Positions 18,243-32,255 of a stretch of 64,000 bases of DNA are shown here, piece by piece; the first letter of the stretch is position 1; every line of letters begins with the position of its first letter. The notes below the pieces were generated by a model. It did no database searches. It was not told the DNA's origin and saw only the letters and a list, made by a program, of their open reading frames with translations. The translations under genes were made by a program, and so were the position numbers. The stretch is from Lentisphaera profundi (GTDB taxonomy: Bacteria > Verrucomicrobiota > Lentisphaeria > Lentisphaerales > Lentisphaeraceae): positions 2,294,001 through 2,358,000 of the forward strand of contig NZ_CP117811.1 in the NCBI RefSeq assembly GCF_028728065.1. The letters run 5' to 3'.

Positions 18243-18362
18243 CTCAAGTCCTTATTTAATACTGATACCTCTAAGCATTCTTAATGCTTAGCCAGCTCCC
18301 AATCTATTGATTTTTTCAATGGATTTTCTTACTTTATGTATAAGATAAATTGGTATCAGATT

Positions 18363-19724
18363 ATGAAAAAAACCATCTTATTCGGCGTGGCCACAGCAAC
18401 TTTGATTTCATGTCAAAGTTATCAGCCCGTTGAACTCAAGCCTCAAGATATCTTGAGCGAAATCGAAAGTCAACGAAATAAAAAAATCGACTTAGAAACA
18501 TTCACTTTTGCGCAAGCCGCAAGTGCCATGGACACAAATAACTTGCGCCTTCAGCAAATTCGTCAACAATATAAAGGCCTACAAGAAGTCGCTAACTTAA
18601 AAACCCCTTTAGCTAATCCTACAATAACTGCGGGCCCCGCAAAAGGATCTCGCCTGGAAGACACGACTTCTAGCTCCACTCAAGCTTTTATCGGCATTGC
18701 TTTTAATATCCCTCTTGGTCCACGACTACGAAGAAATGATGAACTCAATGAGCTCATTGCTCTACGAGCTTATAATGAACAAGTCCTCAATCATCGCCAA
18801 CTCTATTTCGAGCTCCGAGAAGCCTATGTTTCGTATAGCTTATCACAAAAAGCTATCAAACTACAAAACAAGATAGAAAAAACTTTAGAAACAACCGCAA
18901 ATGCGACTAAGAAACTATTTGATTTTGGCTCGACGAGCAAACTAAGCCTAACCGAAGTTAAGCTTCAACAAGGCGAAATCAGCTTAGAAAAACTTGATCA
19001 AATTATGCAATCCAAGGAGTACTTAGCGGAACTTTCAAATTTATTGGTGATCGATGAAGGGATCCTCGAAAACCTTCAACTTGAGATTTTGAACTCAGTT
19101 GATCAGAATATTGAATTTCAGAAGCTGAAACAACAATTCATACTCAATAATCCTAGTCTTGCTCGCGCCGAAATGGCTTTTCACTTAGTCGATGCGGAAC
19201 TGCGCTTAGAATTAGCTAAACAATACCCCGATCTAAGTGTGGGCTTTGATGCGGATCAAGAAGTTGGGGAACGCAAAAGAACTTATGCCATTCCCTTTTC
19301 TGTTGAGCTCCCCATTTTTGACCGCAATCAACAGGCTATTGCCCTGAGCTTAAGTCAGCGCGAACAAAAGCTCATTACTTATAAAGAGACGATGAATTCA
19401 AAAATCAGTGAACTTAAGAAGATCTACCAGCAACAAATGCTTGCGAGTCAGAAACTCGATATTCTTCAAGACGTCCTGATGCCTTTATCTAAATCTAACT
19501 TAAATGATGCTAAGCGTGCGATGGAGCTCGGAACTATTGACGCTTTACGCTACATGGACATGATCAAAGATCACCAAAAAATGCAACTACAGGTAGTGGC
19601 TCACGAAATTGAACACTGGCAAATAAAAATCCAACTAGAAATGCTTTGCGGCTTTCCTTTGAGTTCAAATAATCAAGCAGATATCAATACACTCGAAATC
19701 AAGAAAATGGAGCTTTCAAAATGA
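18363..19724 (+). CDS. TolC-family outer membrane efflux lipoprotein (CzcC/CusC-like)
   Basis: About 453 residues from ATG 18363; an ATG nine codons upstream is also possible. The signal MKKTILFGVATATLISC ends in a lipobox cysteine. The body is mostly amphipathic helix in two similar halves (LANPTITAG... and PSLARAEMAFHLVDAELRLELAKQYPDLSVGF), the TolC duplication. It would form the outer membrane channel of the metal efflux complex. Its stop overlaps the adaptor gene start (ATGA), showing a single operon. Confidence 0.88.
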   Translation: MKKTILFGVATATLISCQSYQPVELKPQDILSEIESQRNKKIDLETFTFAQAASAMDTNNLRLQQIRQQYKGLQEVANLKTPLANPTITAGPAKGSRLEDTTSSSTQAFIGIAFNIPLGPRLRRNDELNELIALRAYNEQVLNHRQLYFELREAYVSYSLSQKAIKLQNKIEKTLETTANATKKLFDFGSTSKLSLTEVKLQQGEISLEKLDQIMQSKEYLAELSNLLVIDEGILENLQLEILNSVDQNIEFQKLKQQFILNNPSLARAEMAFHLVDAELRLELAKQYPDLSVGFDADQEVGERKRTYAIPFSVELPIFDRNQQAIALSLSQREQKLITYKETMNSKISELKKIYQQQMLASQKLDILQDVLMPLSKSNLNDAKRAMELGTIDALRYMDMIKDHQKMQLQVVAHEIEHWQIKIQLEMLCGFPLSSNNQADINTLEIKKMELSK

Positions 19725-21424
19725 AAATAATTCTAATCACTTTGAGTCTACTAGGAATCTTTTTTTCTTGTGACAATAAAACAGTAAAAGCTGAAAAAAA
19801 CCTAGATCCTCATGCTGGTCATAATCACGGAGATTCAGATAATCACAATGAGTCCGCTGATGCTCATGCAGGTCACGATCACGGGGATTCTGACAATCAT
19901 GGCGAAGAGGATGATCACAAAGAAAGCGATGATGGCAATAGTTCAAAAATCTCTCCCCAAGCGATACAGAATATGGGCATAAAGATTGAAGAAATTGATT
20001 CGAGTGATTATACGATCTTCAGTCCTATCCCTGCGTATATCAGTAATCATCCTTTGAATACCCTCCCTATTTATGCGCCCTTATCGGGGCGACTCAAAAG
20101 CTTTCAGCTCGAGCCTGGACAATTCATTGAATCTGGTTCACTTCTCGTAGAAATCATACGCGATCCCATTAAGCGACCTCAATTAAACCTCGTACAAGAT
20201 ATTTTACGCCCTGCTTCAGAAGAGTACCATAATTCTATTGCGGTACTCCGTTCTTCTTTGCGCAATCTAAAGCTTTTGAATACTGAGCTCAAGAGATTAA
20301 ACAAATTCAAAGAAAGTAGTGATGGTTTATCCATTGTTCCTCAAAAAGATTTAATTGACCTACGTTATGAGATCTCTAAAGCTACACAAGAACTCGATAA
20401 CAATCGAGCCAAATTAAAACTTCACGGCTTAAGCGAAAGTGCCCTCACAAAACTTGAAGCGGGAGAGGAACTCGTCCAAAGTCCTAAGCTTTGGCTCAAT
20501 GCCTTAAAGCAAAATAATATCTGGACTAAACGTTCAGAAAAGCTTTTCTCGCAAATGAGTAAATTACAAAAAACTAATCGCTGGATTATCGCCACTATTG
20601 GAGAATTATCTGCTGAAGAAATTATTGATGACACCTTAGTGGATTTTTTCTCCAAAAATCCTAAAGCCATAGATTCATTTCTCGAGATAGCCAGCTTTCT
20701 TCAGCAAGGCCACAGTTTAACTGACATTGAAAATCTCTATCATTTAGGAGCTCTCAATAGCATCATCAAAATCAAAGCCCCTATCAATAAAAACTCATGG
20801 GATTTAAAAGAGATTAATATCAAGGCTGGACAAATAGTTAAGCGTGGAGATGTATTATTCACTTTAATTGATCCCAGTAAAATGCTCATGACTGCCAAAC
20901 CTAGTGGCTCAGAATTTAACCTCATCAATAATGCCGTTAAAAATCAATTCTCAATTAATGCGACTCCTTTAATAAAAAATAGTTCCATAGATCTAACAGG
21001 CCTCAAAATCTCTAAGATCATGGGTCAGGACCAAGGCTTACCCGTCGTATTGCTTCCTAGTGACAATAGTATTCTCAGCCAGCAAACTCTCAACAAAGTT
21101 AGCTATCGCAACTGGAACCTACGTGAGGGCATGAAGTACACCCTTAAAGTCCCAATTAAAAAAATCGAAGATGTGATTGTCCTACCTGCTAAAGCTGTGC
21201 TTGAACACGGTGCTGACAAAGTCGTTTTCGTACGTGAAAATGAAGAATTTATTCGCCGAAAAGTCATCGTTGTCTACCAAGATAATGATGTTGCCGTTAT
21301 TGGTGAAGGCTCAGAACTTCTTCCCGAAGAATCCATGGTTACTGCTGGAGCGTTTGCTTTAGAACTCGCTCTCATCTCAGGAACTCCTCAAGCAGTGGAT
21401 CCCCACGCTGGGCACAACCACTAA
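19721..21424 (+). CDS. RND efflux periplasmic adaptor with His-rich ends (CzcB/CusB-like)
   Basis: 567 residues. A lipoprotein signal ends at FFSC, followed by a His/Asp-rich metal-binding stretch (DPHAGHNHG repeated, residues ~30-75). Then come a lipoyl/barrel-sandwich half (YAPLSGRLKSFQLEPGQFIESG), a long coiled-coil hairpin, the second half-motif (IKAPINKNSWDLKEINIKAGQIVKRGD) and a beta-barrel. Uniquely, the protein ends with another DPHAGHNH. It couples the inner-membrane pump to the TolC channel, and the His-rich termini probably collect divalent metals in the periplasm. It overlaps the upstream gene by four bases and is 13 bases from the pump gene. Confidence 0.9.
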   Translation: MKIILITLSLLGIFFSCDNKTVKAEKNLDPHAGHNHGDSDNHNESADAHAGHDHGDSDNHGEEDDHKESDDGNSSKISPQAIQNMGIKIEEIDSSDYTIFSPIPAYISNHPLNTLPIYAPLSGRLKSFQLEPGQFIESGSLLVEIIRDPIKRPQLNLVQDILRPASEEYHNSIAVLRSSLRNLKLLNTELKRLNKFKESSDGLSIVPQKDLIDLRYEISKATQELDNNRAKLKLHGLSESALTKLEAGEELVQSPKLWLNALKQNNIWTKRSEKLFSQMSKLQKTNRWIIATIGELSAEEIIDDTLVDFFSKNPKAIDSFLEIASFLQQGHSLTDIENLYHLGALNSIIKIKAPINKNSWDLKEINIKAGQIVKRGDVLFTLIDPSKMLMTAKPSGSEFNLINNAVKNQFSINATPLIKNSSIDLTGLKISKIMGQDQGLPVVLLPSDNSILSQQTLNKVSYRNWNLREGMKYTLKVPIKKIEDVIVLPAKAVLEHGADKVVFVRENEEFIRRKVIVVYQDNDVAVIGEGSELLPEESMVTAGAFALELALISGTPQAVDPHAGHNH

Positions 21425-21437
21425 TAAGGAGTAAATC

Positions 21438-24400
21438 ATGTTAAACAAAATTATTTCTTTTGCCTTAAAGAACAGGATTTTTGTAGTTTGCGCTGCTTTA
21501 CTCATTTCAGGAGCAGGGTTTTTCATCGCTAAAGACATGCCCATTGATGTTCTTCCAGACCTCAATCGACCAACAGTTGTCATCATGACCGAAGCCCATG
21601 CAATGGTGCCTGAAGACGTAGAACAACTTGTCACTCTTCCCCTGGAACAGATTTTGAATGGTGCCACAGGAGTTGAGAATGTGATGTCCACTTCTGGTTT
21701 AGGTTTGTCAGTGATCAAAGTTCAATTTGCTTGGGGTACCGATATCTACCGCAACCGACAAATCGTCATGGAGAAACTCCCCCTCGCGAAATCTCGCTTG
21801 CCTGCAGGTATTGAGCCAATTATGGCTCCGATATCCTCTATCATGGGCCAGATCCAAATTATCGGTATCAATAGTAAAAGTGGCAAACACTCTCCTTCTG
21901 ATATCCGCGCATTAGCTGATTATCAAATCAAATATGATCTACTGTCTATCCCAGGAGTTTCGAAGGTTATCATTGGTGGCGGTTCAGCCAAACAATTACA
22001 AGCCATTATTGATGCGGAAAAACTACGGAGCTTTGGTGTTAGCATCTTAGATGTAGAAACAGCCATTACCAAAAACAACGCCAATAGTAGCGGAGCATTT
22101 ATTAATTTAGGGACAAAAGCCCCCGCCATTACTGTGCGCGGCTTCATTAAAAGCAAAGAAGATTTAGAGAAGGTTGTCGTCAAAGCCGATGATCTACGCC
22201 CTGTGCTTTTAAAAGATGTTGCCACAGTACAATTTGGTCCATCCGCCATAAAAATTGGCGAAGCGGGCATCAATGGCACTCCTGGTGTTTTAATGGTTAT
22301 CATGAAGCAACCAGGTTACGACACAGTCAAACTCACTGAGCAAATTGAAGAACGTCTGAAAATGCTCTCTTCAAGCCTTGATAGTGATTTGGAAATAAAC
22401 ACTGAATTATTTAAGCAATCGATCTTTATTGAACGCGCCATTGATAATGTCATGGAAGCCGTTCGTGATGGTGGCATTATGGTGGTGATTATCCTTTTTA
22501 TCTTCTTGATGAATTGGCGAATTACTTTTATTACTCTCACTGCCATTCCTTTATCCATGGCTTTGACGGTACTCGTCTTCTCCATTTTTGATGTATCAAT
22601 AAACACCATGACTCTTGGAGGTATTGCCGTTGCAATTGGCGCCTTAGTGGATGATGCCATTGTAGATGTTGAAAATGTTTTTAGAAGATTAAAAGAAAAT
22701 CACCTCAAGGATATCAGTTTACGCGAAAATGCCTTATCCGTTATTTTCAAAGCTTCATCAGAAGTCCGTAAACCGATTGTTATTGGCACCTTACTGGTCA
22801 TGGTCGTCTATCTCCCTTTATTTTTTCTAACGGGAATGGAAGGTAAATTATTTACTCCTATCGGGGCATCTTATATTATCTCTGTGCTAGCCTCTCTCTT
22901 TGTTTCTTTGACGGTTACACCTGTACTTTGTTACTTTTTACTTCCGAATTCACTTTCAAAAAGTTCGGATAAAGAGACTTTCGTGGTACGTACGCTCAAA
23001 GTAATTGTGGCGAAAGTGATTGCTGTTAGTATTCGCCGCGCAAAAACTGTTTTAGTTCTCCTCGTTATAGCGCTTGGTATCAGCATTGCTTTCCTCTTGA
23101 CGCGAGGGACTCAATTCCTACCTCCTTTTAATGAAGGTGTCGCGCAGGTTAACTTAGTTCTTCCTCCAGATACTGGTCTCGATACTTCTAATGCTTATGG
23201 TTTACGTCTAGAGAAGTTATTGACTGGAATCAATGGCATTAAAAATGTCACTCGACGTACGGGCCGATCCGAAGGAGATGAACATGCGGAGGGAGTAAAT
23301 ACCTCCGAAATCATCATCAGCTTTGATCCCAAAGTTGAACGCCAACCTGAAGATATCATTGCAGAAATCCGCCAAGAAATCGATGCTGAATTTCCTGGTG
23401 TCGCTTATGCGATTGATCAACCCTTAGCGCATTTACTTTCGGCTATGCTTTCAGGAGTCAAAGCTCAAGTCGCGGTTAAAATATTTGGCCCTGATTTAAA
23501 TATTTTACGCTCTCTCGCAAAAGATGTCGAGCAAGTATTAAAGCCCGTAGATGGCGTCAAAGACTTAATTGTAGAGCCACAAGTCTTGATCCCCAATATT
23601 TCGATAGAACCCAAACGTGATAGCCTCGCCTTACATAGCTTAAGTGTGGATGATGTGGGTAAAACTGTCGAACTATCACTAGGTGGGGAAACAGTCTCTC
23701 GCTTTATCCAAGGTCAATTTACTTACCCGATCATTTTACGACTTAAAGAAGAAAATCGACAATCCTTGGACGACATTCGCAATCTTTATGTGCGTAAAGA
23801 TAATGGTGAGCTCATTCGTTTAGCCGATTTAGCTGATGTGAAGCAAACTTTGAGTTCTAATAATATTAAGCACGAGAATGTTGGTCGACGTATTATTGTG
23901 CAACATAATGTCGCCGGGCGCTCTCTCGGTGAAGTCGTTGCAGATGTAGATGTCGCACTCGAATCGGTGCGTGAACGCATCAAGGGCTTAAAGGGTTATT
24001 CCTTAAGAATCAGTGGCCAATTCGAAGCTCAACGCAAAGCAACAAAGCGAATTTTATTGCTCAGTATTGTCTCCTTACTCTGCATGGTTTTAATTCTCTA
24101 TATGCATTTCAAGTCTATTAACCTCAGCCTACAGGTGATGATAAGTATTCCCATGGCCTTTTTGGGTGCCGTCACTTATTTAGCCATTAGCAAACAAACT
24201 CTCTCAGTTGCAACGCTAGTTGGTTTAATTTCTCTAGGGGGTATTGCGGCCCGAAATGCGATTTTACTCTTGGATCATTACATTCACTTATGTCGTAAAG
24301 AACAAATTAAATTTACTCCCGAATTAATTATCCAAGCAGGACAAGAACGTATGGTTCCAGTCATTATGACCGCGCTCACTAGTGGCATAGCACTGATTCC

Positions 24401-24587
24401 CCTCGCCTTAGCTCCTGGCCAACCTGGTAAAGAAATTCTTTATCCAGTTGCCACGGTAATTATCGGCGGACTCATCTCGAGTACCATACTCGAATTCATT
24501 GTTAGTCCTGCCGCGTTTTGGCTCTTTGGGAAAAAAGCTGCTGAAAAGACTGCCGATCCCGAAAAAATAGATTTCGATTTTAAATAA
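21438..24587 (+). CDS. Heavy-metal RND efflux pump (CzcA/CusA family)
   Basis: 1049 residues, full length for the HME-RND subfamily, with 12 expected membrane helices and two large periplasmic loops. It begins MLNKIISFALKNRIFVV. Family motifs include DVLPDLNRPTVVIMTEAHAM, VIKVQFAWGTDIYRNRQ, AIGALVDDAIVDVENVFRR (helix 4 acidic relay), GTQFLPPFNEG and ISLGGIAARNAILLLDHYIH. It uses the proton gradient to export metal ions together with the adaptor and TolC genes. Ion specificity (Zn/Co/Cd versus Cu/Ag) cannot be safely read, but His-rich partners favour divalent ions. AAGGAG lies before the ATG. Confidence 0.95.
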   Translation: MLNKIISFALKNRIFVVCAALLISGAGFFIAKDMPIDVLPDLNRPTVVIMTEAHAMVPEDVEQLVTLPLEQILNGATGVENVMSTSGLGLSVIKVQFAWGTDIYRNRQIVMEKLPLAKSRLPAGIEPIMAPISSIMGQIQIIGINSKSGKHSPSDIRALADYQIKYDLLSIPGVSKVIIGGGSAKQLQAIIDAEKLRSFGVSILDVETAITKNNANSSGAFINLGTKAPAITVRGFIKSKEDLEKVVVKADDLRPVLLKDVATVQFGPSAIKIGEAGINGTPGVLMVIMKQPGYDTVKLTEQIEERLKMLSSSLDSDLEINTELFKQSIFIERAIDNVMEAVRDGGIMVVIILFIFLMNWRITFITLTAIPLSMALTVLVFSIFDVSINTMTLGGIAVAIGALVDDAIVDVENVFRRLKENHLKDISLRENALSVIFKASSEVRKPIVIGTLLVMVVYLPLFFLTGMEGKLFTPIGASYIISVLASLFVSLTVTPVLCYFLLPNSLSKSSDKETFVVRTLKVIVAKVIAVSIRRAKTVLVLLVIALGISIAFLLTRGTQFLPPFNEGVAQVNLVLPPDTGLDTSNAYGLRLEKLLTGINGIKNVTRRTGRSEGDEHAEGVNTSEIIISFDPKVERQPEDIIAEIRQEIDAEFPGVAYAIDQPLAHLLSAMLSGVKAQVAVKIFGPDLNILRSLAKDVEQVLKPVDGVKDLIVEPQVLIPNISIEPKRDSLALHSLSVDDVGKTVELSLGGETVSRFIQGQFTYPIILRLKEENRQSLDDIRNLYVRKDNGELIRLADLADVKQTLSSNNIKHENVGRRIIVQHNVAGRSLGEVVADVDVALESVRERIKGLKGYSLRISGQFEAQRKATKRILLLSIVSLLCMVLILYMHFKSINLSLQVMISIPMAFLGAVTYLAISKQTLSVATLVGLISLGGIAARNAILLLDHYIHLCRKEQIKFTPELIIQAGQERMVPVIMTALTSGIALIPLALAPGQPGKEILYPVATVIIGGLISSTILEFIVSPAAFWLFGKKAAEKTADPEKIDFDFK

Positions 24588-24604
24588 AAACAAAAGGAAA
24601 AAAT

Positions 24605-25117
24605 ATGAAAAAATTAATCACTTGTTTAATGGTGCTTAGCTGTCTTGCGAACAATTCTTTTGCTGAGGATGATCACAAAGATCATGACCATAGCAAACAT
24701 GAAGAACATAAAGGCCATGATAAGCACAAAGGGCATGATCATGATAAGCACGAAGGACACGACGATCATGATCATGGTGAACACAAGCCTCATCCAGGCC
24801 ACGGCGGAGAAACCCTCAAGGTAGGAACTTCTGCTTTACTTTGGTATGCTCACATGGGAAAAAGTGGTGAATTCATAATCGTGCTTTTTAAAAGCGATGG
24901 CAAAACACCGAAATCCATCGAAAAGGCACCTCGTTTAAATCTCGCACTAAAATCGGGTCGCAAGCAATTAAAATTCATTGCTTTAAAAGCCGACAGCGAA
25001 GGAAAATCTTCTACTTTTGAACTCAAAAGTGATTTACTCAAAGCACATATCCACGGACAAATCTCCATCAAAGTTGATGGAAAATCCCATATATTGAATC
25101 TCATTGATCACCATTAA
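24605..25117 (+). CDS. His-rich periplasmic metal-binding protein
   Basis: 170 residues. A signal peptide (MKKLITCLMVLSCLANNSFA) is followed by about 40 residues that are mostly His, Asp, Lys and Glu (HKDHDHSKHEEHKGH and onward), an obvious metal sponge. The remaining ~100 residues look like a small beta-rich domain ending LIDHH. Seventeen bases separate it from the RND pump and a strong AAAGGAA precedes the ATG, so it is the last gene of the efflux operon. Likely role is buffering or delivering metal to the pump. Confidence 0.75.
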   Translation: MKKLITCLMVLSCLANNSFAEDDHKDHDHSKHEEHKGHDKHKGHDHDKHEGHDDHDHGEHKPHPGHGGETLKVGTSALLWYAHMGKSGEFIIVLFKSDGKTPKSIEKAPRLNLALKSGRKQLKFIALKADSEGKSSTFELKSDLLKAHIHGQISIKVDGKSHILNLIDHH

Positions 25118-25136: not shown

Positions 25137-25176
25137 AAAGCCTAAAGCATGAAAATGTTTTGGGCTTTATTTTTTC
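25137..25176 (+). terminator. Terminator of the metal efflux operon
   Basis: A 13-bp stem with two G-T pairs (AAAGCCTAAAGCA against TGTTTTGGGCTTT) and a six-base loop, then six T residues. It lies 20 bases after the His-rich gene and overlaps the 3' end of the convergent DUF1653 gene. Confidence 0.8.
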
Positions 25177-25379
25177 TCGGAATGAAAACTAAAGCGTTGT
25201 ACAGATGCACCATCACGCTCAATGATTTCAGAAAACATCGCTAAAGGACGAATCCATAAAGCTCTTTCCCCATACATGGGTCTATAAATCACAAAGTCTT
25301 CTTCTGTTTCACTATCCTTTGCCACATCAATGACTTGATAAAAGTTCCCTTTATAATGACGGTAAATACCTTTTTTCAT
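25167..25379 (-). CDS. DUF1653-family small protein
   Basis: 70 residues. The pattern GIYRHYKGNFYQVIDVAKDSETEEDFVIYRPMYGERALWIRPLAMFSE matches, by recognition, the DUF1653 family of short SH3-like bacterial proteins. Function is unknown. It is a single gene convergent with the metal operon, and its end overlaps the operon terminator. Confidence 0.85.
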   Translation of the reverse strand: MKKGIYRHYKGNFYQVIDVAKDSETEEDFVIYRPMYGERALWIRPLAMFSEIIERDGASVQRFSFHSEKK

Positions 25380-25516: not shown

Positions 25517-26203
25517 ATGCCCAAAGTACTACTTACAATTTCACTCCTTTTATTTTGGGGTTGTACCAACCACACAGAACTGAGTATTCACTCTCAAGTA
25601 AAAAATGTTCACAGTATTTCTTCAAGTGAAGGTCAAGACTTATTTCAGACTATCGACCAAGAACTCTATCTGAAAACTAAAAAATACTGGCAAGCCCAAA
25701 GAAAAAATTACTGTGGTGTTTGCTCACTGACAATTGCAGGCAATACACTTAATCAAAATAACCACATTGATCAAGATAACTTTTTTGATAATATGGTAGC
25801 TGAAGAAGTTATCCTCCCTGCGACGGTCGCAAAAATGGGAATGACCCTGCGAGAACTTCATGAAGCCACCGTTCGTCGCCTTGTAAATATAAAAGTAGCA
25901 AAGCATTACGCTCACATATCTGGCTTAGATCTCTTTCGTTTGCAGCTAAAAAACTTAAATACTGATACTCAACTCATCGTCAACTTTTCTCGGCAATCAC
26001 TGAAGGGCGAGGGCATGCGCTCTGGACACTTCTCTTTAGCCACGGCTTACGATGCCAAATCGCGAAAAGTTTTAATTCTCGAAGTCCAATCAAGTCGTGA
26101 ATCCTTTTGGGTTCAAGATAAAGATCTCTACAATGCCATGCTCGCAGTAGACCCCGTCAGCAAAATCCCGCGTGGCTGGTTACTTTTAAACAAGGAAAAA
26201 TAA
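25517..26203 (+). CDS. Phytochelatin-synthase-like exported cysteine peptidase
   Basis: 228 residues with a hydrophobic N-terminus ending at C16 (LLLFWGC), so probably a lipoprotein. The core matches the PCS family (papain-like): NYCGVCSLTIAGNTL carries the nucleophile C66, KMGMTLRELHEA follows, and SGHFSLATAYDAKSRKVLILEV carries H171. The family's catalytic Asp (LILDV) is Glu here (E189), and the usual RYKYPP after it is replaced by QSSRESF. Prokaryotic PCS-like proteins hydrolyse glutathione to gamma-Glu-Cys and glycine, and some make phytochelatin. Export here suggests action on periplasmic glutathione or its metal complexes. Its stop overlaps the start of gamma-glutamyltransferase (TAATG), a tight functional link. 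Confidence 0.85.
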   Translation: MPKVLLTISLLLFWGCTNHTELSIHSQVKNVHSISSSEGQDLFQTIDQELYLKTKKYWQAQRKNYCGVCSLTIAGNTLNQNNHIDQDNFFDNMVAEEVILPATVAKMGMTLRELHEATVRRLVNIKVAKHYAHISGLDLFRLQLKNLNTDTQLIVNFSRQSLKGEGMRSGHFSLATAYDAKSRKVLILEVQSSRESFWVQDKDLYNAMLAVDPVSKIPRGWLLLNKEK

Positions 26204-27909
26204 TGCATTATTATCTTATAACTCTTTTCTTCATCAGCTCTTCTCTACTCTTAGCAGATCCTATTATTAGAGCTCCTAACATAGACTTCAAAAATAGTTC
26301 AATTAGCCGTGCCAAAAACTTAATGATTGTTTGTCAAGATGACAAAGCAGCAAGTGCTGGACTCGAAATTCTTGAAGCTGGGGGAAATGCTGCAGATGCG
26401 GGGGTTGCCATCGCCTATGCACTTGCGGTTACTCAACCCAAAGCCGGCAACCTTGGCGGTGGTGGATTCGCCCTCTATTATGATGCCGAAACTAAAAAAA
26501 CTATTGCCATAGATTTTCGTGAACGCGCTCCTGCTGCGACTACAAAAGAAGATTTCCTTAAAGCTGATGGCAGTGTTGATCATGACGCCCTACGCTTTTC
26601 ACCCAAAGCCTGTGCTGTACCAGGAACTTTGGCAGGCATCGATTTTATTAATAAAAATTTCGGTCAGCTTAAACATAAAAGCCTCATTGAACCTGCTATC
26701 ATCCTTGCTGAAGATGGCTTTGCAATCTCCGCAGGCCTCGCTTATGACCTTAAGGTAAAACGTGATTTTCTTGGGAACAAGAAGGAAGCTAAGCGTATTT
26801 TTTTTCCTGAAGGAAAACTCATGAAAGAAGGTGACATCCTTGTACAGGAGGATCTTGCTAACACACTTAGACGCTTAAAAAAATACGGTCCAAGCTATTT
26901 CTATAATAGCCACATGGGCAAAGAATTTGTCAATTGGCACAAAGAAAATGGTGGCCTCATTGCACTCTCAGATCTCAAACGTTATAAAGTTATAGGGCGA
27001 GAACCCTTAGTAGGCAACTACCGTGGTCTTAAAATATTTTCCATGCCCGCTCCTAGTTCTGGTGGAATGCACCTTATACAAATGTTAAATATTCTCGAAA
27101 ACTACAATTTAGAGAAGCTACCCAAAGACCAATATTTCCATCTCTTAGCCGAAACTATGAAACTCGCCTATGCCGATCGTAGTCATTACCCAGGCGATCC
27201 CGATTTCAATCATATTCCACAACAAGAAATCATTTCAAAAAAATACGCCAAGAAATTAAAGAAAACGATTAAGCTAAAGAAAGCTCGTCCCGCAGAAGAT
27301 ATATCACACGGAAAACCAGGACCCCACGAAAGCAATGACACCACTCACTTTTCTGTTACAGATCGTCAAGGCAATGTACTAAGTTTTACTTACACCATCA
27401 ATTATAGCTTTGGCAGTGGCATCATCATTCCTGGTTTTGGCTTTTTTCTCAATAACGAAATGGATGACTTTGCTATCCTTGAAGGAGTTCCGAATTCCTA
27501 TGGACTTCTAGGAGGCAAGGCCAACTTTATCAAAAGTGATAAGCGTCCCTTAAGTTCAATGACTCCCACTATAGTATTTAAAAATGATAAACCCTACCTC
27601 TGTACCGGAAGCCCTGGCGGAAGTCGCATCATCACCACTGTATTACAGGTTCTCGTCAATATAATCGACTTTAATATGGATTTACGAGAAGCGACTTTAC
27701 GCCCCAGAATCCACCATCAATGGCTTCCTGATCAACTTGAGTACGAAGCTGGTTTAGATGAAAACATAGTCGAAAGCCTCAAAGCAAAAGGACATAACAC
27801 AAAGGAAGTTTCCCCATTTGGTTGTACCGAAACTATTATGATTCGCTATGATGGCAAACACGGTTTTGCCGACCCAAGAAGAATCGACGGTAAGGCCCTG
27901 GGACTCTAA
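26203..27909 (+). CDS. ggt: Gamma-glutamyltransferase (glutathione hydrolase)
   Basis: 568 residues with a signal peptide (YLITLFFISSSLLLADP). Motifs are GGNAADAGVAIAYAL and GNLGGGGFALYYD at the N-terminus. The autoprocessing site follows in HESNDTTHFSVTDRQGN, with T380 as the predicted nucleophile and new N-terminus of the small subunit. GSPGGSRIITTVLQV lies later. It is a periplasmic Ntn-hydrolase that removes the gamma-glutamyl group of glutathione. It is translationally coupled to the PCS-like gene, so together they could strip glutathione from both ends. Full length, no damage seen. Confidence 0.95.
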   Translation: MHYYLITLFFISSSLLLADPIIRAPNIDFKNSSISRAKNLMIVCQDDKAASAGLEILEAGGNAADAGVAIAYALAVTQPKAGNLGGGGFALYYDAETKKTIAIDFRERAPAATTKEDFLKADGSVDHDALRFSPKACAVPGTLAGIDFINKNFGQLKHKSLIEPAIILAEDGFAISAGLAYDLKVKRDFLGNKKEAKRIFFPEGKLMKEGDILVQEDLANTLRRLKKYGPSYFYNSHMGKEFVNWHKENGGLIALSDLKRYKVIGREPLVGNYRGLKIFSMPAPSSGGMHLIQMLNILENYNLEKLPKDQYFHLLAETMKLAYADRSHYPGDPDFNHIPQQEIISKKYAKKLKKTIKLKKARPAEDISHGKPGPHESNDTTHFSVTDRQGNVLSFTYTINYSFGSGIIIPGFGFFLNNEMDDFAILEGVPNSYGLLGGKANFIKSDKRPLSSMTPTIVFKNDKPYLCTGSPGGSRIITTVLQVLVNIIDFNMDLREATLRPRIHHQWLPDQLEYEAGLDENIVESLKAKGHNTKEVSPFGCTETIMIRYDGKHGFADPRRIDGKALGL

Positions 27910-27913
27910 TTTC

Positions 27914-28291
27914 GTGCCACTAAAGCATCAAGCTCTCATCGATAAAATGCAAGATGCCTGTACCCACAAACAGATTTCTGGATTTCGCTTAAATGTGCTC
28001 TCTCAGCTATTAAAAATCCCCCCTGGCCAAGTGACTACCTATGGACTCTTGGCAAAATCTATTAATTGTCATTCTGCACAAGCCATTGGTCAAGCCTTAA
28101 AAGCCAATCCCTGGGCTCCCCATGTCCCCTGTCACCGAGTGATAAAAAGTGATTTACGCATAGGCGGCTTCTTTGGCCAAAGATCGGGTATACAAATAAA
28201 TAAAAAACTTTCTCTCTTAGATTCTGAAGGCGTTTTCTTTGACAAAGACGGCATTCTTTTAGATTCGACTGCAATCTTTAATTTTGAATAG
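27914..28291 (+). CDS. MGMT-family DNA alkyltransferase domain protein
   Basis: About 125 residues from a GTG five bases after the ggt stop; a longer frame beginning inside ggt at 27848 is open but less likely. The C-terminal domain shows IPPGQVTTYGLLAK (helix-turn-helix) and the active-site PCHRV with the acceptor cysteine retained, then IGGFFG. That is the alkyltransferase core without the N-terminal domain of Ada or Ogt. It therefore resembles short MGMT or alkyltransferase-like proteins that repair or flag O6-alkylguanine. It probably belongs to the PCS-ggt operon. Confidence 0.8.
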   Translation: MPLKHQALIDKMQDACTHKQISGFRLNVLSQLLKIPPGQVTTYGLLAKSINCHSAQAIGQALKANPWAPHVPCHRVIKSDLRIGGFFGQRSGIQINKKLSLLDSEGVFFDKDGILLDSTAIFNFE

Positions 28292-28299
28292 GATATAAC

Positions 28300-28797
28300 A
28301 TGAGTACGACAAAAGATGATAAATTAAGTGTAGACATGGCTCTACTTTTGGCACGACTAGCCTTTGGAGGATCCATGTTGATGGCTCATGGTTGGCCAAA
28401 ACTACAAAACTTCACCTTAGTAAGTGAAAAGTTCCCTTCTTTATTTGGGCTGAGTTCAAGCACTTGCCTAGGACTAGCTGTCTTTGCAGAATTTTTCTGC
28501 TCCATACTCTTAATCCTAGGTTTAACTAGCCGTTTTGCTCTCTCACAACTCATCGCTACTATGGCCGTAGGCGTTTACTTTCATACTACTGTATTAAAGC
28601 AACAACTATTTGATGCTCCTGGAAAACCCAGTGGAGAGCTCCCTTTTATCTACCTCATGATTTTTATAATACTCATGATTTTAGGCTCTGGTCGAGTTTC
28701 TTTAGATGCTGTTATTAAAACAAAAAGAGCCAATCGACCTACAAGCAAACCCTCAAGTAAGTCTAGTGATAAAAAAAAGGCCCCTAAGAAAAAATAA
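28300..28797 (+). CDS. DoxX-family membrane protein
   Basis: 165 residues with four predicted membrane helices. The typical DoxX start LLLARLAFGGSMLMAHGWPKL is followed by GLAVFAEFFCSILLILGLTSRFAL. The C-terminus is a highly basic tail (KSSDKKKAPKKK). DoxX proteins are small membrane proteins linked to thiol and oxidative stress in other bacteria. It starts eight bases after the MGMT-like gene and has GGATATAAC before ATG. Confidence 0.87.
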   Translation: MSTTKDDKLSVDMALLLARLAFGGSMLMAHGWPKLQNFTLVSEKFPSLFGLSSSTCLGLAVFAEFFCSILLILGLTSRFALSQLIATMAVGVYFHTTVLKQQLFDAPGKPSGELPFIYLMIFIILMILGSGRVSLDAVIKTKRANRPTSKPSSKSSDKKKAPKKK

Positions 28798-28909: not shown

Positions 28910-30097
28910 ATGCGGTTTGTAGGATATTTATTGATGTTGTCTTGTGGCTTAGTTTTATCCGCCACAGAACTCAAAATCTATATTGATGCCGACTTCTCCA
29001 ATTATTATGAATCGAGTCGAGCCATCGAAGTGGGCATCCTTTCTTCTTTAGAACACAATAAAAAAAAGCTAGCCGGCCAAAAAATCACCGTCCACAAACT
29101 CGATCACCGGGGCAATAGTCGGCGCAGTCTCAAGAACATAAAAATGGCTGCTGCTGACCCAAAAACCTTAGCGGTTTTTTGCGGAATGCATTCTCCTCCC
29201 GTATTAGCTAACCAAAAATTCATCAACGACAATCAATTATTACTCCTAAACCCGTGGGCTGCAGCGGCTCCGATTACTCGTTCTCAATCCAAACACAATT
29301 ATATTTTTCGACTCTCATTAGACGATTCAACCGTCGGTCAATTTTTAATCACTAGCGGTATAAAAATCCATAAAATACAGCGTCCCTACCTCTTATTAGA
29401 AGATACTGCTTGGGGTAAAAACAACTGGAAAACTCTTTCCCGCGCAATTAATAAAGCTGAAATTCGTAAGTCGGGAGTCACTTGGTTCAAATGGGGCTTA
29501 TCACAATACGCAATTGATAAACTTATATTGAACCTCAAACAATCGAATGCCGACAGCATTGTTCTAGTGGGCAACGCTATGGAAAGCTCAAAAATAGTTA
29601 ACGCCATTAGTGACGCTAACTTGAAAATACCTATAATTTCCCACTGGGGAATTACAGGCGGCCGCTTCTACGATAGCTTAAATTCTAAGGCGAAAAAATA
29701 CCCACTATTATTTATTCAATCTTCCCTAGATATGTCCTCCAATTCAAATAACGAAATTATCAAAAAGTGTTCACTCTTATTCCCCGATGATTTCAACAAT
29801 AATTACATCAAATCCCCTAGTGGTTTCCTCCACGCCTATGACTTAAGCTCTTTATTAATAGAAGCGTCACAGCATGAATTTAAAAAAAGGGGCTTAGACC
29901 TAAGGGAGGCCGTGAAGCGTAAGCTTGAGACTCTAAGCACACCTGTAAAAGGCTTAATCAAAACTTATCACAAGCCTTTTCAAGCTTACTCTCCTGATGC
30001 TCCTTTTAGTCATGAAGCATTAAACAGCGCTGATTATCGCATGGCTTATTATAATGATCAAGGGCAAATTTCCCACCGAGGAACAGATCATGACTAA
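28910..30097 (+). CDS. Periplasmic binding protein (branched-chain amino acid/LivK fold)
   Basis: 395 residues from ATG 28910, which has AAAGGAG in front; the open frame further upstream is not needed. A signal peptide is present (MRFVGYLLMLSCGLVLSA). The pattern DADFSNYYESSRAIEVGILSSLE, KITVHKLDHRGNSRRSLKNIK and AVFCGMHSPPVL matches type I periplasmic binding proteins (Peripla_BP_6). No ABC permease is nearby. Instead the gene overlaps a hybrid histidine kinase by eight bases. The likely role is ligand sensing for that kinase rather than transport. Confidence 0.82.
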   Translation: MRFVGYLLMLSCGLVLSATELKIYIDADFSNYYESSRAIEVGILSSLEHNKKKLAGQKITVHKLDHRGNSRRSLKNIKMAAADPKTLAVFCGMHSPPVLANQKFINDNQLLLLNPWAAAAPITRSQSKHNYIFRLSLDDSTVGQFLITSGIKIHKIQRPYLLLEDTAWGKNNWKTLSRAINKAEIRKSGVTWFKWGLSQYAIDKLILNLKQSNADSIVLVGNAMESSKIVNAISDANLKIPIISHWGITGGRFYDSLNSKAKKYPLLFIQSSLDMSSNSNNEIIKKCSLLFPDDFNNNYIKSPSGFLHAYDLSSLLIEASQHEFKKRGLDLREAVKRKLETLSTPVKGLIKTYHKPFQAYSPDAPFSHEALNSADYRMAYYNDQGQISHRGTDHD

Positions 30098-32255
30098 GCA
30101 TTTATCTGCCTACAAAATAAGCGTTAGTGTCATGGTTTTCATTGGCCTCTCCATTATGGTGGGTACAGGCATTATCATCTGCCAAAATTTAACCAATATT
30201 TGCCATCAGAACTTTCAAAGCCAAGCCAACATTCGAAGCCAACAATTACAAAAAGAAATCACCCATTACCTGACTCAAAGAACCCGTATTTTGAATGATT
30301 TAGCTCAGCTGAGTGTTTTTTCTCAAGCCGTTCTTCAACCTGAACAAAGCGCTGAAGAAGCTCAAAGCTTAATGAATTCTTGGCAACTCCTCGGTAAACA
30401 TTACCCACTATACTTACTTGACTTTGAAGGCGATGTAATTCGCAGTAGTGAAAATAATGAGTCCGTCTTTGTGATGCATCCTACCATAAAAAGCCTTTTG
30501 AAAGAAGAGCTTGATCAAAATGTTGACTTGATCAAGCAAGCCCCTAATCCTCGAATCAGATTGAGTGTTGCAGTTAAACACAACAATCATACAGAAGGAG
30601 CTTTAATTACTGAGCTACCCATGACAGAAGCCTACGAGAGCTTGTTACAACTCCTTGGCCCTAGTGAAGGGTTACAAATTTTTCACCATAATGACGAGCT
30701 CACTTATTTGGGCCCAAATATACCACAAGCATTCCAACAAAAAATTGAATTAGGCAAAGGCTTTTGGGCAAATATCTATTTTGATTATGCGCCATTTATC
30801 AAAACACGAAATCAGGCCTTAGCTCGATATCTACTCATTGCTTTTATAGTGAGCGTTCTCATTACGACAGTAGGCTTTCTCATCATCAACTACCTCTTAA
30901 TTAAGCCCCTCAGTTCTCTAGAAACACACATGAGTCAATGCACACTCATGTCATCCATAAAAGCTCCTCCAAAACTAATTGTACAGGAGTTTTATAATTT
31001 AAAAATCCTTTTTGATAACTTGGTATCCAGCCTAGAAAGTCGCCATAAAAATTTAGAGGATGTAAACACTGAAATGGAACAGCTCGTCCAGCAGCGAACC
31101 ATAGAGCTCACTGACAAAATTCATGAGTTACAAAAAATGAGTCAGTTCAAATCACACTTTTTTGCCAATATGAGTCACGAAATTCGAACGCCAATGAATG
31201 CGATTTATGGTTACACCACCTTACTACAAGAGCTAGAATTAGATGAGCAAGCAAAAAACTATAGCGAATCCATACATCAATCAACTCAAAGTCTCTTAGC
31301 CATTATCAACGACGTTTTAGATTTTACAAAAATCCTAGAAGAAAATAGTGAGCTCAACCTTCGAGTATTTAACTTTAACGAACTTTTAAGAAACTTAGAA
31401 AAGCTATTTTCTGAATCCTGTGAATCCAAATCCTTAAAACTCAATTTCACTTTACTTGATGAGCCTAATGTATGGGTAAAAGGTGATAAAGATCGCATAC
31501 GTCAAGTTATGGTCAACCTTATTAGTAACTCAATCAAGTTCACCCCTAATGGTCATATCGATATCATTAGTCAATACCATGACGACACAAATAATGCCTT
31601 AATAAATATACAGATTAAAGATTCTGGAAGTGGTATCCCCCCTCTCAAATTAAAAAAATTGATGCATTTCCTTAATGAAAAAACTCCTCTTTCTGAAGAG
31701 AGTGGTCTTGGCTTAAAAATAAGTCAAGATTTACTTAAACAGATGGATTCAGAATTATCTATCAGATCTACAGAGAAACAAGGAAGCACCTTTGAATTTG
31801 AGCTTCGTTTAGAAAAAATAACTCAAACAGCTACTTCAAAAAAAGTCCCTATAGACTTCTCTATACTTGGATATATGCCCGACATTTTAGTTGTCGATGA
31901 TAACCGTATCAATTTAGAGCTTGTACGCGATTGCCTTAAAGACTTACCCGTCAACTGTCATCTTACAAGTAGCGGAAAAGGGGCCCTTGATTTCATCAAA
32001 TCAAATCCCACTGATTTAATTTTAATGGATTGCCAAATGCCACAGATGGATGGTTTTGAAGCCACTAATAAACTGAGGGAGCTAGGTGTAGATATCCCCA
32101 TCATCGCCTTTAGTGCCAATGCCTTTCAAGATAATATTGACGAATGCTATAAAGTTGGAATGAATGATTATATTGTCAAACCTTTTGAAAAACATATCTT
32201 CCTAGAAAAAATCCTTACGTGGCTTAAACAAACAAACACTCAAACGGATAACTAA
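30090..32255 (+). CDS. Hybrid sensor histidine kinase
   Basis: 721 residues from ATG 30090. Order: membrane helix (VSVMVFIGLSIMVGTGIII), a ~210-residue periplasmic sensor domain, a second helix (YLLIAFIVSVLITTVGFLI), a HAMP-like linker and a coiled coil. The HisKA follows with H363 (MSHEIRTPMNAI), then an HATPase with GDKDRIRQVMVNLISNSIKF and SGSGIPP and GLGLKIS. A C-terminal receiver has phospho-acceptor D647 (LILMDCQMPQMDG) and the VKPF lysine. No HPt domain or output regulator is adjacent, so a phosphorelay partner must be elsewhere. The overlapping upstream binding-protein gene probably provides the input signal. Confidence 0.95.
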   Translation: MTKHLSAYKISVSVMVFIGLSIMVGTGIIICQNLTNICHQNFQSQANIRSQQLQKEITHYLTQRTRILNDLAQLSVFSQAVLQPEQSAEEAQSLMNSWQLLGKHYPLYLLDFEGDVIRSSENNESVFVMHPTIKSLLKEELDQNVDLIKQAPNPRIRLSVAVKHNNHTEGALITELPMTEAYESLLQLLGPSEGLQIFHHNDELTYLGPNIPQAFQQKIELGKGFWANIYFDYAPFIKTRNQALARYLLIAFIVSVLITTVGFLIINYLLIKPLSSLETHMSQCTLMSSIKAPPKLIVQEFYNLKILFDNLVSSLESRHKNLEDVNTEMEQLVQQRTIELTDKIHELQKMSQFKSHFFANMSHEIRTPMNAIYGYTTLLQELELDEQAKNYSESIHQSTQSLLAIINDVLDFTKILEENSELNLRVFNFNELLRNLEKLFSESCESKSLKLNFTLLDEPNVWVKGDKDRIRQVMVNLISNSIKFTPNGHIDIISQYHDDTNNALINIQIKDSGSGIPPLKLKKLMHFLNEKTPLSEESGLGLKISQDLLKQMDSELSIRSTEKQGSTFEFELRLEKITQTATSKKVPIDFSILGYMPDILVVDDNRINLELVRDCLKDLPVNCHLTSSGKGALDFIKSNPTDLILMDCQMPQMDGFEATNKLRELGVDIPIIAFSANAFQDNIDECYKVGMNDYIVKPFEKHIFLEKILTWLKQTNTQTDN

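Follow-up and report, generated by a model that had tools for sequence, protein, structure and literature searches.

In the window, the whole 64,000-nucleotide stretch of Lentisphaera profundi DNA that was analysed, a gene for a phytochelatin synthase (PCS)-like lipoprotein runs directly into one for a gamma-glutamyltransferase (GGT), and the two putatively exported enzymes together can probably break glutathione (GSH) down to its three constituent amino acids outside the cytoplasm. Judging from sequence comparison, we put the probability of a relay that dismantles extracytoplasmic glutathione and salvages its amino acids at roughly 0.6. Bacterial PCS-like proteins often hydrolyse glutathione instead of making phytochelatins, and their physiological role is poorly settled; a conserved, recurrent and apparently exported PCS–GGT pair suggests one role, glutathione turnover outside the cytoplasm. 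Both families are known, as are bacterial PCS and their horizontal transfer (PMC7411734). The pairing itself is apparently undescribed: a search of open-access papers found none on an exported PCS–GGT pair or on PCS in Lentisphaera. The pair and the sites discussed below are as follows.

25517..26203, + strand: PCS-like papain-fold lipoprotein, 228 aa, with Cys66, His171 and Glu189 and a CxxC at Cys66–Cys69 (PF05023)
25712..25723, + strand: codons of catalytic Cys66 to Cys69 (CGVC), by alignment
26027..26029, + strand: codon of catalytic His171, by alignment
26081..26083, + strand: codon of Glu189, aligned with the catalytic Asp of the PCS family
26084..26110, + strand: altered B-loop 4, VQSSRESFW against VSRYKYPPVW in Nostoc, by alignment (site defined in PMC3855540)
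26203..27909, + strand: GGT precursor, 568 aa, with an N-terminal signal and maturation/catalytic Thr380 (PF01019, TIGR00066)

The PCS-like frame matches the PF05023 profile at 100.7 bits (cut-off 24.9; profile positions 9–210 of 210), and its best solved relative is the Nostoc PCS (2btw, E 2e-20, residues 30–226). The stop of this frame and the start of the GGT frame share one base (TAATG), the overlap that an earlier note on this DNA had described. GGT is complete, matching PF01019 at 559.9 bits (profile positions 2–510 of 512) and TIGR00066 at 575.4 bits (cut-off 357.85). Its best solved relative is E. coli GGT (2e0w, E 1e-156; MEROPS T03), which it resembles over its full length with 47% identity; the light chain of the E. 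coli enzyme starts opposite Thr380, and both this autoprocessing Thr and the oxyanion Ser-Ser motif (RPLSSM, which contains the shared RPLSS stretch) are present. Whereas the E. coli enzyme has Cys-Gly peptidases as partners, that of Lentisphaera is paired with a PCS-like protein.

Export signals were assigned by eye and by motif. The PCS-like protein begins with a lipoprotein-type signal with lipobox Cys16, in which Trp at −2 is unusual; the sister-genus proteins carry textbook lipoboxes (LVAC/LSAC), and motif inspection found a lipobox-like Cys in all five PCS-like proteins of the Lentisphaeraceae. The GGT N terminus is hydrophobic and of Sec type.

Active site of the PCS-like lipoprotein

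We aligned the active sites of these five Lentisphaeraceae proteins, from the window genome (G000), L. marina (G001), G002, G004 and G005, with those of 13 active-type homologues from outside the family (cyanobacteria, Pantoea, Arsenophonus, Salipiger, rhizobia and other genomes of the phylum). Of the Cys-His-Asp triad of PF05023/C83, Cys66 and His171 are present and the third residue is Glu189, which occupies the Asp column without gaps in 5/5 Lentisphaeraceae, against Asp in 13/13 of the other homologues. The spacing of 17 residues between His171 and Glu189 is the His-to-Asp spacing reported to be stable across PCS (PMC11314372). All five likewise lack the Tyr-Pro-Pro of the second-substrate loop. 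The Glu substitution and the loss of the RYKYPP motif after it, both noticed earlier in the single sequence, thus recur in all five proteins and are therefore not sequence noise. By homology, Glu189 is a conservative triad variant; the protein is named PCS-like.

Cys66, His171, Arg159, Asp212 and Arg219 are all retained in the five proteins. Arg159 corresponds to R173 of the Nostoc enzyme (NsPCS, alr0975), and Asp212 and Arg219 match NsPCS Asp225 and Arg232, which we take to be the gamma-Glu contacts of the acyl-enzyme structure. As a point against the relay, substitution of Asp180 kills AtPCS1 (PMC11314372), and our literature search found no test of an Asp-to-Glu change in the triad of a PCS. 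We consider it very unlikely that the Lentisphaera protein has no catalytic activity, or senses gamma-glutamyl thiols, and leaves GGT as the sole enzyme: the D189E change and three related lipoproteins in the same genome that lack the Cys and His and lie near Peripla_BP_5-domain regulators would fit such a role, but the five residues named above are kept in every species, unlike in those paralogues. Moreover, in other cysteine proteases the third position of the triad can be filled by Glu.

The altered loop bears on the reaction. In NsPCS, Lys206 and Tyr207 are loop residues of a proposed second-substrate cavity (PMC3855540), and K185R in AtPCS1, the equivalent of a Lys206 change, abolishes activity (PMC3855540). 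Of the four residues at this site (Ns Gln64, Arg173, Lys206 and Tyr207), the PCS-like protein keeps Gln and Arg and has lost Tyr207; the Lys206 equivalent is its Arg194, with Arg throughout the genus Lentisphaera (3/5) and Lys in G004 and G005. Since the gamma-glutamyl-binding residues are kept and the acceptor Tyr-Pro-Pro is gone, the protein is predicted to be a glutathione deglycinase and not a phytochelatin synthase; the loop loss argues, at the level of sequence, for hydrolysis over transfer to a second glutathione. In NsPCS, hydrolysis of GSH to gamma-EC and Gly is the main reaction (PMC12065762, PMC3855540) and runs efficiently with no additives (PMC12065762), while PC2 is formed slowly (PMC3855540). 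A bacterial PCS from Geitlerinema with Cd yields phytochelatins up to PC4, which counts against the deglycinase reading (PMC7411734); such bacterial phytochelatin synthesis, together with PF05023 membership, is what could be said for a true phytochelatin synthase outside the cytoplasm. We regard this as extremely improbable, given that the second-substrate loop is lost in 5/5 and that the adjoining GGT would cut the N-terminal gamma-Glu bond of the product. Millimolar glutathione, besides, is unlikely in the periplasm.

The earlier note had overlooked a further feature, a CxxC at the nucleophile. All five Lentisphaeraceae proteins have Cys69 after Cys66 (CGVC or CGIC), whereas the other homologues compared all have Ala or Gly at this position; apart from the lipobox Cys, the two are the sole cysteines in all five proteins. 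Because the catalytic Cys stands at the start of a helix in the papain fold, a reversible Cys66–Cys69 disulfide is geometrically plausible, which is speculation on our part. A structure model of the protein built from two sequences was set aside (mean pLDDT 38).

In sum of likeness, the Lentisphaera protein shares with NsPCS (2BTW/2BU3, MEROPS C83) the fold family, catalytic Cys and His, Arg159, the gamma-Glu-site Asp and Arg, the lack of a C-terminal domain and an expected reaction, GSH to gamma-EC and Gly. Unlike NsPCS, it has Glu for Asp, a CxxC at the nucleophile, no Tyr-Pro-Pro, a lipoprotein signal and a GGT partner. The Glu triad, the CxxC and the missing acceptor loop are natural variants for probing what distinguishes a glutathione hydrolase from a phytochelatin synthase.

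Conservation and recurrence of the PCS–GGT pair

PCS followed by GGT on the same strand, with anything from a one-base overlap to a spacing of a few bases, is kept in three Lentisphaera species (G000, G001 and G002) and in one member of a sister genus (G004). In G005 the two genes are unlinked; its PCS keeps a TauE-family neighbour, and its sole GGT lies 5 bp before an SDF symporter gene (Na:dicarboxylate/glutamate family). Neither PCS nor GGT was found in G003, of the same family. Among 198 genomes of the class, PCS occurs in seven, GGT in nine and both in five (Fisher p 1e-6, uncorrected for kinship), a value that is no independent test, because all five genomes with both belong to one family. 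A scan of genome contigs gave one real match, L. marina. A search of 395 Bacteroidota-side genomes yielded no PCS, but its controls gave no match either, so that absence there is unproven.

The pair recurs in Pantoea. On a plasmid of Pantoea sp. JZ29 (NZ_CP045242) the order is DUF5993, DsbB-like, exported PCS-like and GGT; P. stewartii DC283 has the same arrangement with an interrupted GGT frame (plasmid pDSJ10, L045:6341-8283), which is intact in JZ29. As in Lentisphaera, the PCS of JZ29 is followed directly by GGT in the same orientation, both with apparent export signals, and the second-site Lys-Tyr is gone. Unlike its Lentisphaera counterpart, the JZ29 PCS has the triad Asp, no CxxC and a Sec-type signal, and its pair is preceded by the DsbB-like and DUF5993 genes. 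In the tree, Pantoea PCS lies outside the Lentisphaeraceae clade and clusters with the PCS of Arsenophonus, a locus without a GGT in its vicinity; among the few GGT sequences compared, that of Pantoea is closest to E. coli GGT and those of the Lentisphaeraceae form their own group. Because both trees separate Pantoea from Lentisphaeraceae, the pairing was probably assembled twice, independently, and a common origin of the two pairs is not favoured. A genome survey of such pairs had been proposed earlier, non-conserved pairing being the outcome that would have spoken against the idea; the survey finds the pair in four Lentisphaeraceae genomes and in Pantoea. These are the two lineages in which we found it, Pseudomonadota having been sampled through plasmid records only.

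At the other plasmid PCS loci, annotation or tblastn revealed no GGT within about 5 kb. Unpaired PCS keep YKYPP in Salipiger and G254 and FKYPP on cyanobacterial plasmids, and neither motif is found in the unpaired PCS of rhizobia and G282, so that pairing and second-site loss are only partially correlated. No viral or phage relatives and no E. coli relative were found.

Several of the unpaired loci have features of their own. In G254 (L020:1474-2901), the PCS domain carries an N-terminal extension of ~235 aa whose YGSL motif recalls gamma-glutamyl cyclotransferases; Pfam and PDB searches did not support a reading of this 475-aa protein as a fusion to such an enzyme. The insect symbiont Arsenophonus nasoniae has, on its plasmids (L044, L052), an exported-looking PCS-like gene directly behind a replication initiation gene, and G282 (L021/L054) has an Asp-type exported PCS near arsM-like methyltransferase, catalase-like and Fur-like genes. 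On Scytonema and Aulosira plasmids (L042, L051), a PCS with FKYPP is flanked on both sides by cation-transporting ATPase genes, and this setting points to metals more convincingly than the surroundings of the pair in the window do.

Gene neighbourhood and metal context

Around the pair, the window holds the following features.

18336..25117, + strand: metal RND efflux operon, considered to lie outside the system, with genes for an outer-membrane component, an adaptor, a CzcA/CusA-type pump and a His-rich protein
25137..25174, + strand: terminator-like hairpin and T-run at the end of the metal-efflux operon, a 14-pair stem followed by ATTTTTT
25167..25379, − strand: DUF1653 gene between the metal operon and PCS–GGT (PF07866, 99.7 bits)
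27914..28291, + strand: MGMT/Ogt-like DNA-binding domain protein with a PCHRV motif (PF01035, TIGR00589), probable GTG start
28300..28797, + strand: DoxX-family membrane protein in the same tight gene string as GGT and MGMT (PF07681)
28910..30097, + strand: Peripla_BP_6 ligand-binding protein, probable ATG start (PF13458), syntenic in three species
30054..32255, + strand: hybrid sensor kinase with HisKA, HATPase and receiver domains and a weak dCache match

The earlier note had placed the pair directly beside a metal efflux operon. The operon does lie just upstream in all three Lentisphaera species, but the hairpin (itself 25137–25168) and the opposite-strand DUF1653 gene intervene, and both are conserved in the three species (DUF1653 protein 73–76% identical in two sister species). 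The sister-genus member G004 has the pair and no metal genes within the 11.4 kb read, and linkage to metal efflux is absent in G005 as well. By sequence, the pair and the metal efflux genes are thus predicted to belong to separate transcription units, and their linkage is not conserved; because a terminator and an opposite-strand gene intervene and G004 has the pair without the operon, the metal link is a genus-level neighbourhood and weak as evidence of function. The His-rich exported protein that closes the operon (24605–25117) gives a weak ZrgA-like match.

These observations weigh on the proposal, put forward from the window alone, of a periplasmic pathway that strips metal–glutathione complexes. 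In such a pathway the exported complexes would be substrates of PCS and GGT, and the metal so released would pass to the neighbouring RND pump. Plant PCS acts on Cd-bis-glutathionate (PMC3855540), which together with the upstream operon speaks for such a pathway. The PCS-like protein, however, lacks the metal-activation C-terminal domain and metal-binding Cys motifs, with two Cys only in its mature form, and the G005 GGT adjoins a symporter gene; with the intervening terminator and antisense gene and the metal-free surroundings in G004, we rate metal stripping as quite unlikely.

Downstream, the MGMT/Ogt-like gene begins 4 bp after GGT, and in each of the three Lentisphaera species the MGMT and DoxX genes come directly after GGT, a few bases apart, partners that amino-acid salvage leaves unexplained. 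They would suit the detoxification of electrophiles and alkylating agents, in which exported glutathione S-conjugates are turned into cysteine conjugates by an operon whose MGMT/Ogt product would repair alkylated DNA and whose DoxX product would shield the membrane; PCS proteins are reported to process GS-conjugates (PMC3561135). Both genes, however, are away from the pair in G004 and Pantoea, and the genes next to the pair included no GST or conjugate exporter; this alternative, too, is unlikely.

Probable glutathione dismantling outside the cytoplasm

Glutathione dismantling with amino-acid salvage is the reading that we prefer. The earlier suggestion of an extracytoplasmic pair acting on glutathione from opposite ends holds up as a prediction, with a pairing that is conserved and recurrent; its recurrence in Pantoea suggests glutathione recycling and not metal detoxification. 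Adjacency of the genes, its conservation and recurrence, and the make-up of the active site are observed; location, substrate, hydrolysis over transfer, order of steps and salvage role are what we infer for the pair. Cys66-His171-Glu189 of the lipoprotein would form a gamma-Glu-Cys acyl-enzyme from glutathione, with release of glycine; the acceptor pocket being crippled, water and not a second glutathione would complete the cycle, and gamma-Glu-Cys would leave. Periplasmic GGT would then strip the gamma-glutamyl group to give Glu and Cys, so that leaked or environmental glutathione could yield three free amino acids for uptake, with no need of a Cys-Gly dipeptidase. The position of the G005 GGT gene next to an SDF symporter gene speaks for this reading. 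GGT alone already degrades glutathione, and the need for the PCS-like protein in this relay is a predicted one. Genes of gshA and gshB type are both present; gshA at the window start, as noted previously, gives a PF04262 match, is partial and lies ~25 kb from the pair.

We also entertain, as a tentative and rather doubtful extension, a distinct PCS subfamily that has a Cys-His-Glu triad and a CxxC redox switch and works outside the cytoplasm with GGT in full GSH breakdown without a dipeptidase, an alliance that would have evolved at least twice, and whose dead PCS-fold relatives in Lentisphaera would serve ligand-sensing regulators.

Degenerate PCS-like lipoproteins are encoded elsewhere in the window genome (L017:6883-7539, L017:9652-10476 and L018:5446-6132), with a further one in G002 (L019:7996-8775); in the alignment, the three from the window genome lack the catalytic Cys and His. 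The second L017 copy and the L018 and L019 copies adjoin regulators of ~1000 aa with AAA ATPase and Peripla_BP_5 domains, and the first L017 copy lies nearby, an arrangement in which a retired enzyme fold has possibly been reused for sensing.
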